From Cryobacterium sp. M96 (GTDB lineage: Bacteria > Actinomycetota > Actinomycetes > Actinomycetales > Microbacteriaceae), in NCBI RefSeq assembly GCF_002929845.1, contig NZ_PJJS01000034.1:1-57328 (forward strand): 57,328 nt of DNA. Reading direction: 5' to 3'. The notes under the pieces were generated by a model that was not told the origin of the DNA, searched no databases, and saw nothing but the letters and a program-made list of their open reading frames with translations. Made by a program: the position numbers and the translations under genes. Positions 63 through 55,237 of the stretch are shown piece by piece (positions within the stretch are counted from its first letter, which is position 1; every line of letters begins with the position of its first letter).

Positions 63-149
63 GCAGCAGGAGAGCCAGAATTTTGGCCGAATCGGCCCAA
101 AACAGCGCGAGAAAGCCGTTTCGAAGCAAAATCTCCGTCGAATTCGTTC
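63..149. repeat. 87-nt palindromic element, copy 1 (left arm decayed)
   Basis: The right arm (126-149) reads GCAAAATCTCCGTCGAATTC followed by GTTC and matches the arms of the copies at 18484, 28116 and 55151. Counting back 87 nt, the length of the other full copies, gives a left arm in which only the inner ATTTTG and a few outer bases still match. The outer flank (GACACCGG) is shared with the half copy at 48185. The element lies 45 bp beyond the stop codon of the short-chain dehydrogenase gene. Confidence 0.7.
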
Positions 150-194
150 GACACCGGAAGCCTCGTCCAGGAGGCTCCGGCTAGGAGGATCCGG

Positions 195-1037
195 CTAGGA
201 GGCCAGAGGCGCCGAGTGCGCGGCGACCAGCGCGGAACTCTGCTCCCAGAGGGCGGCGGCCAGCTGAGAGTCGTAGGCCTGCTTGTTCGCCTTCTGGATG
301 CGGCGTTTCTCGTAGTACTCGCCCGATGCCCAGTCGGTGCCCGGCGTCGCGGTGGCCAGCCAGACCAGGGTGTCGGCTCCCTGTTCAGCGCCGAGCAGCA
401 GGCGTTTGAGCGGAGTCTGGTAAATGAGGCGCATGAGGGTCGTCGACCCGGTGGAGAAGCTCGTTGCCACCACGCCGGGGTGGAAGGCTGCAGTGGTGAG
501 TCCCTCGTCGCTGTAGCGGCGGTGGAGTTCCCTGGTGAAGAGGATGTTCGCGAGCTTGCCGTCGCCGTACGCCTTGTTCGCGGAATACTTCGTCTCGCCC
601 TGCAGATCGTCGAGGTCGATCTTGCCGAAGAGCTGGTTGGCGGCGCTGGACGTGTTGATCACCCGGGCCCGACTGGCGACGAGCCGGTCCATCAACAGCG
701 TGGTGAGCAGAAAGGGAGCCAGGTGGTTGACCTGGAAGGTCTTCTCATAGCCGTCAACGGTGGTTACGCGGTCGCCCATGATGCCGCCGGCGTTGTTGGC
801 GAGCACGTCGATGCGCGGATAGTGCTCCTGCAGCTCGGCGGCAAGGGTGCGCACCTCGTCGAGGCAGGCGAAATCGGCCACGAGGAAGTCGGCACCCAGT
901 GCCTCGGCGACAGCGGCGGTCTTGGCTGGCGAGCGGCCCACGATCACGACTCGGTCGCCGGACTGGCTGAGGGCGCGGGCGGCGGCGGCGCCGATCCCGT
1001 CGCTGGCGCCGGTGATCACGATGGTGCGTGCGGTCAT
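195..1037 (-). CDS. SDR family NAD(P)-dependent oxidoreductase
   Basis: This 280-residue protein is a classical short-chain dehydrogenase. A TGASDGIG dinucleotide-binding motif lies at residues 9-16, NNAGG at 81-85, a serine pair near 130 and a YGDGK catalytic Tyr-Lys pair at 157/161. The spacing and the KLAN segment after the lysine resemble retinol-dehydrogenase-like SDRs, which reduce or oxidise carbonyl/alcohol groups with NADP(H). The substrate cannot be read from the sequence. The ATG is preceded by a GGAGGA ribosome-binding site. The gene follows a small HExxH-like gene by 15 bp, so the two are probably co-transcribed. Confidence 0.9.
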   Translation of the reverse strand: MTARTIVITGASDGIGAAAARALSQSGDRVVIVGRSPAKTAAVAEALGADFLVADFACLDEVRTLAAELQEHYPRIDVLANNAGGIMGDRVTTVDGYEKTFQVNHLAPFLLTTLLMDRLVASRARVINTSSAANQLFGKIDLDDLQGETKYSANKAYGDGKLANILFTRELHRRYSDEGLTTAAFHPGVVATSFSTGSTTLMRLIYQTPLKRLLLGAEQGADTLVWLATATPGTDWASGEYYEKRRIQKANKQAYDSQLAAALWEQSSALVAAHSAPLAS

Positions 1038-1052
1038 TCTGGGTCCTCCGGG

Positions 1053-52462: not shown

Positions 52463-54046
52463 ATGCTCTGGAAACTGCTCCTGAAATACCTGCGGCCGTA
52501 CCGGCGGCTGCTGGCAGCCGTCGTCGTGTTCCAGCTGGCCCAGTCGATCGCCTCGCTCTATCTGCCCACCCTCAACGCCGACATCATCGATGAGGGCATC
52601 GCCACGGGAGACACCGTGTACATCCTGCGCATCGGTGGTCTGATGCTGCTGATCACCCTGTTCCAGATCGTGTGCGCGATCGTCGCCGTCTTTTTCGGCG
52701 CGAAGGCCGCCATGGGGCTCGGACGCGACCTGCGCGGCGCTGTCTTCACCCGGGTCGGCGAGTTCTCCGAGCAGGAGGTCACCCGGTTCGGCGCCCCGTT
52801 GCTGATCACCCGGTCGACCAACGACGTGCAGCAGGTGCAGATGCGCGTGCTGATGACCGCCACCATGATGGTCACCGCACCGATCCTGTCCATCGGCGGC
52901 GTGATCATGGCCGTCCGGCAGGACGTGCAGCTATCCTGATTGATCGCCGTGAGCGTGCCCGTGCTGTTGATCGCGGTCGGGCTGATCATCGCGCGGATGG
53001 TGCCGCTGTTCCTCCTGATGCAGACCCGCATCGACACGGTGAACCGGGTGCTGCGGGAACAGCTCACGGGCATCCGCGTCATCCGGGCGTTCGTGCGCGA
53101 AGACGTCGAGTCCGTGCGGTTCGGCAAGGCGAACGTGGATGTCACCGACACCGCCCTTCAGGCCGGCCGCCTGATGGCCCTGATGTTCCCGGTCGTCATG
53201 CTCGTCCTGAACGTCTCCAGCGTGGCCGTGATCTGGTTCGGGGCGTTCCGGATCGAGGACGGGTCCATGCAGGTCGGCACCCTGGTTGCCTTCCTTAGCT
53301 ACCTGATGCAGATCCTGATGGCCGTGATGATGGCCACGTTCATGGCCGTGATGATCCCGCGGGCGACCGTGTCGGCCGACCGGATCGGCGAAGTGCTCGA
53401 GACCGATTCCAGCGTGCGCCCGCCGCTCCACCCCGTCGTCGACAGTATCGGCCGCGGAGAGGTGGAACTCGTGGACGTGGGCTTCGCCTACCCCGGCGCC
53501 GAGCAGCCGGTGCTCTCCGACGTGAGCTTTACCGTGCATCAGGGGCAGACCACCGCGATCATCGGCAGCACCGGATCGGGCAAGACCACCCTGGTCAACC
53601 TGCTGCCTCGCCTCTTCGACGCCACCAACGGCAGCGTGCGGGTCGACGGGGTGGACGTGCGCGAGCTCCACCCTGACCTGCTCTGGGGCAGCATCGGGCT
53701 GGTGCCGCAGAAGCCGCATCTGTTCTCCGGCACCGTGCGCAGCAACCTGCTCTACGGCAAGCCCGACGCCACTGAGGCGGAACTCTGGGAGGCACTGACC
53801 ATCGCGCAGGCCCGCGACTTCGTGGCGGAGATGCCGGACGGCCTCGATGCCCCGATCGCGCAGGGCGGCATGAATGTGTCCGGCGGGCAGCGGCAGCGCC
53901 TGGCCATTGCCCGGGCCCTGGTCAAACGGCCCGAACTCTATATCTTCGACGACTCGTTCTCCTCGCTCGACTTGGCGACGGATGCTCGGCTGCGCGAGGC
54001 ACTGGCCGTCGGCACGGGTGGCGCCACCATGGTGATCGTCGCCCAA
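52463..54046 (+). pseudogene. ABC exporter subunit 1, inactivated by nonsense codon and fusion
   Basis: The frame begins MLWKLLLKYLRPYRRLLAAV, an ABC transmembrane domain start, and reaches a TGA at 52937-52939 where homologues have Trp (QLS-stop-LIAVSVPVLL). The same frame then continues intact through the rest of the membrane domain, Walker A (GSTGSGKTTLVN), signature (MNVSGGQRQRLAIA), Walker B (LYIFDDSFSSLD) and the strand MVIVAQ. There it stops abruptly where the H-loop region (QRxSTI) and C-terminus should follow. The sequence jumps to the middle of the partner gene. It is half of a heterodimeric multidrug-type exporter and cannot make the full protein. Confidence 0.85.
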
Positions 54047-54047
54047 C

Positions 54048-55150
54048 CGCCTCCCGCTGCGCTACTTCGACACGGTGCAGCGAGGCGAGGTGCTCAGCCG
54101 GGTCACCAACGACGTGGACAACGTCTCACAGAGCCTGCAGCAGTCGCTGAGCCAGGCCGTCACCTCTCTGCTCACCGTGGTGGGCGTCATCGTGATGATG
54201 TTCCTGCTCTCGCCTCTCCTGGCCCTGATCGCCCTGGTCACAGTGCCGCTGACCCTGGTCACGACCGTCCTGATCGCCCAGCGCTCGCAGAAGTTGTTCG
54301 TCGCCCAGTGGACCCACACCGGCGAGCTGAACGGCCAGATTGAGGAGACCTTCACCGGCCACGCCCTGGTCAAGGTGTTCGGCCGCCAGAAGGAGGTCGA
54401 GCAACGCTTCCGGGCCAAGAACGACGAGCTCTACGAGGCCAGCTTCGGCGCCCAGTTCGTCAGCGGCCTGATCATGCCGGCGATGACATTCATCGGCAAC
54501 CTCGTCTACGTCGGGATCGCCGTCGTCGGCGGCCTCCAGGTGGCATCCGGGGCCATGCAGCTCGGCGATGTGCAGGCGTTCATCCAGTATTCCCGCCAAT
54601 TCACCCACCCGCTGGCCCAACTCGGGTCGATGGCGAACCTGTTGCAGTCCGGCGTCGCCTCCGCCGAGCGGGTCTTCACCCTGCTCGACGCCGATGAGCA
54701 GAGCCCCGACCCGGAGCGTGCCGAGGCACCCACGACCGCCCACGGCCGGCTGGTCTTCGAGAACGCCTCGTTCCGCTACACGGCGGACAAGCCGCTGATC
54801 GACAACCTGAGCCTGGTGGCCGAGCCCGGCCAGACCGTGGCCATCGTGGGCCCCACCGGGGCAGGCAAGACCACCCTGGTGAACCTGATGATGCGCGTCT
54901 ACGAGCTCGACGCCGGCCGGATCACGCTCGATGGGGTGGACGTGCGCCGAATGGCCCGCGACGACCTGCGTGGACGTATGGGCATGGTGCTGCAGGACAC
55001 CTGGCTGTTTGGCGGCACGATCCGCGACAACATCGCCTACGTGCGTCCAGATGCCACGGAGAAGGAGATCCTGGACGAGGCGACCAGCTCCGTCGACACG
55101 CGCACCGAGGTGCTCGTGCAGAAAGCGATGCGCGCCCTCCGCGCCGTCCG
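54048..55150 (+). pseudogene. ABC exporter subunit 2, truncated at both ends with internal deletion
   Basis: The frame begins RLPLRYFDTVQRGEVLSRVT, about residue 140-150 of a heterodimeric exporter partner; the start and first transmembrane helices are lost in the deletion joining it to subunit 1. The P-loop (VGPTGAGKTTLVN) and Q-loop (VLQDTWLFGGTIRDN) are present. Then EKEILDEATSSVDTRTEV shows an internal deletion (about 50 residues) removing the ABC signature and part of Walker B. After the KAMRALRAVR region, the 87-nt palindromic element replaces the H-loop and end. No function as a transporter remains. Confidence 0.85.
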
Positions 55151-55237
55151 GAACGAATTCGACGGAGATTTTGCCCAAAGCGGCCCTAGAATGACCAAAA
55201 ACCGCTCTGGAGACCAGAATCTCCGTCGAATTGGTTC
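55151..55237. repeat. 87-nt palindromic element, copy 4, at a gene breakpoint
   Basis: Left arm GAACGAATTCGACGGAGATT begins at 55151 and the right arm ends in CGTCGAATTGGTTC at 55237. The length equals copies 2 and 3. Its left end is the exact truncation point of ABC exporter subunit 2 and its right end is 2 bp from the stop codon of the DksA-like gene. Confidence 0.9.

Follow-up and report, generated by a model that had tools for sequence, protein, structure and literature searches.

Intergenic palindromes of bacteria are usually explained as transposon debris or as RNA hairpins, and in BIME-1/RIB elements integration host factor (IHF) bends the DNA between inverted repetitive extragenic palindromes (REPs). 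A dispersed 87-nt element with inverted 20-nt arms was analysed in contig NZ_PJJS01000034.1 (57,328 nucleotides, all of which is called the window) of Cryobacterium sp. M96 (assembly GCF_002929845.1), throughout its 3.3-Mb genome and in related genomes. Like BIME-1/RIB, the element has inverted arms on either side of a putative bend and an intergenic placement; unlike BIME-1/RIB, it is not built of REPs, its bend signal consists of phased A/T runs rather than one protein motif, and it is a strict 87-nt unit. By analogy it may work most like the BIME-type intergenic elements with a bend, the strict length and the phasing being the new part. The reading to which we lean, if only slightly, is that the element is a dispersed double-stranded DNA site at which a predicted protein would grip both arms and curve or wrap the A/T-phased DNA.

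Several described systems were compared with the element using the available parts of the respective papers. The REP doublets of REPIN/RAYT systems (PMC8049555, available part) share with it inverted conserved arms, a diverse spacer, many copies and long persistence. The element differs from them in that a REP-associated tyrosine transposase (RAYT) is absent from 57 of 57 congeneric genomes, in that its nearly invariant arms (consensus GAACSAATTCGACGGAGATT, 38 copies aligned) carry no GTAG-type tag, and in its fixed-length phased spacer, its position-5 mismatches and its non-hairpin interior. CGTC-tagged REPs (PMC3733652, available part) are likewise palindromic repeats without a dedicated transposase, and the 87-nt element contains CGTC in its arms; those REPs are single palindromes of 20-40 bp with loops of 4-5 nt, unlike the 87 nt with a 47-nt interior found here, and the available text of PMC3733652 mentions neither Actinobacteri nor Microbacteri. 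The A-tract periodicity connected with nucleoid packing (available part of PMC3940949) resembles the interior in its helically phased A-tracts, which are thought to bend DNA; that signal is genome-wide, whereas the element is a discrete site with sequence-specific ends. The gyrase motif of E. coli (PMC6379681, available part) is similar in that phased A/T content is read as DNA wrapping on a protein. As regards miniature inverted-repeat transposable elements (MITEs), the terminal inverted repeats are present and exact target-site duplication is not above chance (122 sites). By the features tested, the element is not a REPIN, a gyrase motif or a CGTC-REP, and it is without the target duplication of a MITE. 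No published description of an 87-nt family was found in the literature searched, in which subscription papers were poorly covered.

Arm pairs were collected by a script over 116 fetched stretches and the window, giving 122 pairs genome-wide; a separate whole-genome pattern count with slightly different criteria also gave 122. The core-to-core span was 69 nt, corresponding to 87 nt overall, in 107 pairs, 68 nt in 7, 70 nt in 5 and 76-78 nt in 3, the spacing being exact or within one base in 119 of the 122. An earlier note made from the letters of the window had proposed a new interspersed family of fixed length with conserved ends; copies elsewhere in the genome, with ends shared at 87 nt, bear this out. 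A 20-base pattern with a free spacer gave 111 matches in this genome and matches in 15 of 398 Microbacteriaceae genomes, and its reversed control gave none in the 398. The covariance-model search that the note had suggested was carried out with a model built from 38 copies: at least 150 rows were obtained in the genome, many sites being called on both strands, and 18 of 60 genomes matched (its own included, all of the same genus), with 0 of the 21 other genera sampled. The three outsized spans each bear a footprint like that of an insertion sequence (IS). In three long copies of about 94-96 nt (L220 2592-2685, L241 2573-2667 and L016 8523-8618), the footprints are similar to the IS end GGCTCTCC and are probably imprecise IS excisions.

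The centres, which the earlier note had taken to be free and only loosely alike, have an A/T rhythm of 10 bp in common; the signature given in the note, of conserved ends and free centres, is only half complete, the centres holding phased A/T runs. A/T content oscillated every 10 bp in 124 non-redundant copies, with autocorrelation z scores of 19.5 (lag 10) and 15.3 (lag 20); their flanks showed no such oscillation. Over 169 non-redundant copies, A/T per position went from about 0.12 to about 0.83 every 10 bp with a best period of 9.9-10.0 bp; by group, the best period was 9.85 bp in this genome (n = 85), 9.70 bp in C. shii (16), 9.95 bp in C. sinapicolor (20), 10.10 bp in Compostimonas (13) and 9.80 bp in a Cryobacterium metagenome-assembled genome (14). 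The 10-bp power per copy was 5.3-9.9 times that of shuffles in five groups (for this genome 5.8 times with z 44, for Compostimonas 9.9 times with z 34) and 0.85-1.0 times in left flanks. Among A/T steps, AA/TT made up 82% and TA 6% in interiors, compared with 57% and 18% in flanks (169 copies), and the interior step profile is A-tract-like and depleted of TpA. The helically phased A/T and the fixed geometry expected of a DNA-wrapping site are both present. As regards the handedness of a wrap, periods near 10 bp have received differing interpretations.

Sites were compared between species at orthologous places. In 25 between-species pairs, some of which share a member, the outer arms were 87% identical, the interior 71% and the 40-nt flanks 61%, and the length was equal in 22. 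In collinear regions of this genome and other species, both sides of which were fetched because site-bearing, the site was present in both in 38 of 43. One clear orthologous site, with arms and length kept, is shared with Compostimonas and another with Glaciibacter superstes, a species apparently filed in the same genus by the genome set; an Amnibacterium site between similar flanks (70% and 59%) is a weaker case of orthology. The folD locus has at least one arm in 16 of the 30 congeners viewed (57 matched; some views partial). Three separate features, namely the constant length, the phasing of the A/T runs and the conservation of the arms at the same places in different species, speak for a site that selection maintains at the level of DNA.

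At C26:51590, G454 retains a collapsed scar of two outer arms, and both site and scar are missing from G369, G008 and G452; at C26:85213, half an arm is left in G369 and nothing in G452. Some site losses look like deletions. No clean 87-nt empty site was seen among the cases viewed, seven site-less cases included, and strict patterns for collapsed-arm scars gave none in the 2.1 Mb searched (one is known, that of G454). These observations bear on the main rival, a non-autonomous mobile element (MITE- or REPIN-like) whose arms would be transposase ends, whose phased middle would aid a compact transposition complex and whose copies would be insertions, to which we give a minor but appreciable chance. 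Such an element would account for the inverted ends, the many dispersed copies, the subfamilies with common interiors and flanks and the strong variation of copy number between related species; inexact flank similarity is also slightly above that of swapped flanks (highest z 5.3 over 66 window settings; for example, 0.36 versus 0.31 in the adjacent 11 nt), and at C26:51590 the two flanks align to the site-less G369 and G008 with overlaps of 14 and 9 nt, possibly a short direct repeat. Mobility explains the bursts and the patchy copy number; left unexplained are the absence of RAYT (Y1_Tnp, PF01797, in 0 of 57 congeners, with matches in 5 of 14 controls), the exact flanking duplications of 2-9 bp at only chance level in 122 sites, and the persistence at old positions of outer arms that are more conserved than interior and flanks; the scars of some losses, the want of a clean empty site among the cases viewed and the similarity that extends beyond 87 nt in many copies also speak against it. 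A RAYT-driven REP, for which the earlier note had suggested checking whether copy number correlates with a resident transposase or RAYT, does not agree with these results. A once-mobile family may have been kept as binding sites, and both readings would then be partly true.

Other repeats were seen at the loci compared. Site-less congeners (L278, L280 and L281) have other GC-rich palindromes, of the GGACGGGGCCCGGGCCCCGTCC type, upstream of folD, and the intergenic region of L295 (G008) holds another repeat family, of the GGTCTCGACAGGCTCGACCACCGGG type. The C. shii orthologue lacks a site-holding stretch of about 450 nt that is present in L182 (~2486-2939); this stretch has ATGAGTGAGGCC close to one end and the inverse sequence close to the other, and is possibly a larger mobile unit.

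Gene contexts were taken from a codon-usage gene finder. Of the 122 sites, 60 were between convergent genes, 49 tandem and 5 divergent; the others fell within predicted open frames (5) or at edges (3). For the 114 intergenic sites, the convergent excess (p 5e-10) and the divergent deficit (p 4e-9) were calculated by binomial against the intergenic bp of the same DNA, which was chosen around the sites, so that bias would be hidden if anything. The median distance was 82 nt to flanking 3′ ends and 183 nt to flanking 5′ ends. The location at gene 3′ ends, which the earlier note had given for all copies outside degraded sequence, stands as a preference and not as a rule, because the folD site lies just upstream of its gene. 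Paired operators of a DNA-looping regulator controlling the neighbour genes would agree with the inverted half-sites at fixed helical spacing and with the arms retained at the folD locus; with so few sites between divergent genes, the 3′ ends nearer than the 5′ ends and about 120 sites in all, this explanation is considered highly improbable. The convergent-gene location and the phased A/T would also suit a strong DNA gyrase site of the kind that some BIME elements represent; in the available part of PMC6379681, E. coli gyrase sites have phased GC content and some BIME-2 are bound by gyrase. The motif given there is about 130 bp long, has no conserved arms and consists of a 36-bp centre without periodicity between two flanks whose period is 10.75 bp, whereas the element has a centre periodic at 9.7-10.1 bp and aperiodic flanks, and its sequence-specific and group-specific arms are not in the gyrase motif; a gyrase site is given a slim chance.

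The preference for gene 3′ ends, the 17-pair consensus stem that the arms could form and one Compostimonas copy that resembles microRNA hairpins below threshold are what a transcribed hairpin would have in its favour, whether as a bidirectional terminator, an mRNA 3′-end stabiliser or an RNase III substrate. If the folded strand were functional, the interior halves should be complementary, and their complementarity did not exceed that of halves exchanged between copies (z -1.8 for all 169 copies, -3.2 for the own set and 0.6 for the others); as to a hairpin of the whole unit, the arms can pair and the interior does not. No pair with changes on both sides was found in 38 copies. In 139 of 199 sites a C-arm is combined with a G-arm at arm position 5, which would be a mismatch in the stem, against an expectation of 49% (p 6e-9, a figure made stronger by the relatedness of copies), although this C/G polarity fails in the G451/G455 set (3 of 9). 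Oriented by this polarity, the sites in tandem genes were divided 16 versus 17, unrelated to transcription, and an RNA would have no evident use for helical A/T phasing. At the gathering score, Rfam matched only tRNA in the window and no element; in L001, L063 and L089 there were four matches with E values up to 0.5, none of which reached the gathering score and three of which fell at the L063 element, and the best sub-threshold match was a microRNA family at one Compostimonas copy. Because the interior is non-palindromic, the arms are mismatched at position 5 and the orientation ignores transcription, an RNA hairpin is unlikely, and the structured RNA at transcript ends that the earlier note had offered fares less well.

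The same layout occurs in named records of Cryobacterium, Glaciibacter, Compostimonas and Amnibacterium, among the matches listed. In the 105 named Microbacteriaceae loci listed, the span was 69 nt in 92, 70 in 8, 79 in 2 and 60, 64 and 81 in one each; 4 further matches among those listed belong to other families. The length variants of 60, 64, 79 and 81 nt are mostly about one helical turn off, which is suggestive only (five cases, among the matches listed). The core CGACGGAGATT is constant across groups, one clade having CGACGGAGTTT as well. The outer 9 nt vary: most Cryobacterium sets have GAACSAATT, a set of 6 sites has CGTCGAATT, Compostimonas has tACTCAAAA and the Glaciibacter sequence (4 sites) ends in ACCGTT. 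Within the genus, an exact-core match was found in 35 of 57 genomes and at least 5 sites in 20, with 119-128 in this genome, G025 and G012; such counts run low where cores vary (model versus exact, 42 versus 20 in G008 and 66 versus 35 in G005). A shorter core matched in 74 of 199 genomes, mostly once or twice, with 104 matches in G119, 29 in G212 and 21 in G149. On contig 1 of G455, 50 of the 58 matches were listed and 48 were counted after two coding-like ones had been dropped, from 44 kb to 3.32 Mb; the distribution was uneven, with a 600-kb gap without exact-core sites at 157-757 kb (p 0.003 versus uniform). A 78-nt match in G169 lies inside an open frame and was set aside as probably due to chance, and an origin from phage or plasmid was rejected (one viral-contig match of span 65, one weak 38-nt plasmid match with E 0.09 and no phage match).

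The inverted arms at fixed spacing, the phased A/T runs, the orthologous retention and the concentration at convergent and tandem gene ends are observed, and from them the function of the element as a protein-wrapping site is proposed, the binding being predicted. A predicted protein or complex would hold both inverted arms at once, and the DNA between them would curve along its surface, bending toward the protein with the A/T runs at positions whose minor groove is turned to it, an arrangement known from nucleosomes and proposed for gyrase sites. One trans-acting protein would read the core CGACGGAGATT together with the outer 8-9 nt; this would account for outer arms that vary from group to group but are largely uniform within most genomes. 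The least certain steps are that a small loop or turn would be held where convergent transcription piles up supercoils, and that the approximately 120 sites would serve as nucleoid-organising or supercoil-buffering anchors. Cryobacterium and its relatives could, in a wider and distinctly tentative proposal, possess a sequence-addressed chromatin system of about 120 nucleosome-like 87-bp wrapping sites per genome, with a dedicated architectural protein locking onto both inverted ends and with end sequence and protein co-evolved by lineage. If the protein were found, there would be a defined, countable set of wrapping sites and a natural experiment in related species with about 120 sites versus few, and the role of dispersed palindromic elements in bacterial chromosomes would become directly testable.

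Several observations weigh against a protein-wrapping site. No partner protein emerged: the 10 proteins that were scanned in other genera, next to sites present singly or in low copy (isocitrate lyase, malate synthase, a glycosyltransferase, an acyl-CoA dehydrogenase and a channel protein among them) were mutually unrelated, and the lead that a partner gene beside its site regulates itself was rejected for this reason. The low-copy genera have GC-rich interiors in which phasing is weak or none by eye, and all 9 sites viewed in G212 (L297-L304; 29 sites counted) have a third core in the middle, CGACGGA or its complement, separated from one arm by about 29 nt. In orthologues the A/T class was kept in 48 of 158 interior substitutions, a count without a baseline. 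Flanks common to about half of the first 45 copies in this genome (by eye) and interiors common to the G455 set indicate that the element has also multiplied. Copy number is patchy, 35 of the 37 congeners with fewer than 5 exact-core sites having 0-2, which is odd for a housekeeping anchor. The outer arms are non-uniform within Glaciibacter (4 sites) and G212 (9). Since cores were located by pattern, only the outer 9 nt are free of search selection, and with 7 reversed-control matches in 199 genomes, single shorter-core matches may be chance. As a separate observation on mid-element sequence, two species of one genus (L167 and L168) share an orthologous single site between the isocitrate lyase and malate synthase genes, with ACGACGG mid-element.

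The features of the window are collected in Table 1. Of the four full-length copies of the earlier note, those at 18484, 28116 and 55151 were confirmed by the sequence and the alignment of 38 copies; at 63-149 only about 80-149 is element, and the half copy at 48185 was correctly noted.

Table 1. Copies and parts of the 87-nt element, and the adjoining insertion sequence end, in the window
Feature	Position	Strand	Basis
Complete 87-nt site, tandem context, between GHMP-kinase gene and rho gene	28116..28202	+	Alignment, gene calls, Pfam
Left arm (C-arm), GAACCAATTCGACGGAGATT	28116..28135	+	Sequence; conserved columns, 38 copies
47-nt interior; family interiors have ~10-bp-phased A/T runs	28136..28182	.	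Group profiles
Right arm (G-arm), minus-strand reading GAACGAATTCGACGGAGATT	28183..28202	-	Sequence
Complete 87-nt site, convergent context, adjoins DUF222 gene	18484..18570	-	Alignment, gene calls, Pfam
Complete 87-nt site, convergent context, adjoins dksA/traR zinc-finger gene	55151..55237	-	Alignment, gene calls, Pfam
IS-cut site, 70 of 87 nt remaining, one arm intact	80..149	-	Covariance-model match, model positions 1-70
ISL3-like insertion sequence end cutting the site, boundary near 76-79; contig starts inside the IS	1..79	-	Genome copies
Lone arm, remnant without partner arm	48185..48201	-	Sequence

The IS end at the start of the window has 18 occurrences in the genome, of which 17 lie no more than about 350 nt from a contig end; the same ISL3-like end also interrupts several further arms. 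A decayed copy of the IS gave a sub-threshold match to DDE_Tnp_ISL3 (21.9 bits against a cut-off of 23), and the junctions of different copies suggest an 8-bp target, GAGATTYT. REPs described as IS targets in PMC1525189 (available part) are comparable in that an IS enters the arms of an interspersed palindrome; the families named in that part are IS3, IS110, IS4, IS256 and IS5, without mention of ISL3, and this comparison concerns the passenger and not the element. Many assembly breaks (for instance the contig ends of L009, L021 and L031) fall at junctions where the ISL3-like IS has hit element arms. The part of the DUF222 gene at 17733-18312 of the window belongs to a multi-copy gene family and matches many places in congeners.

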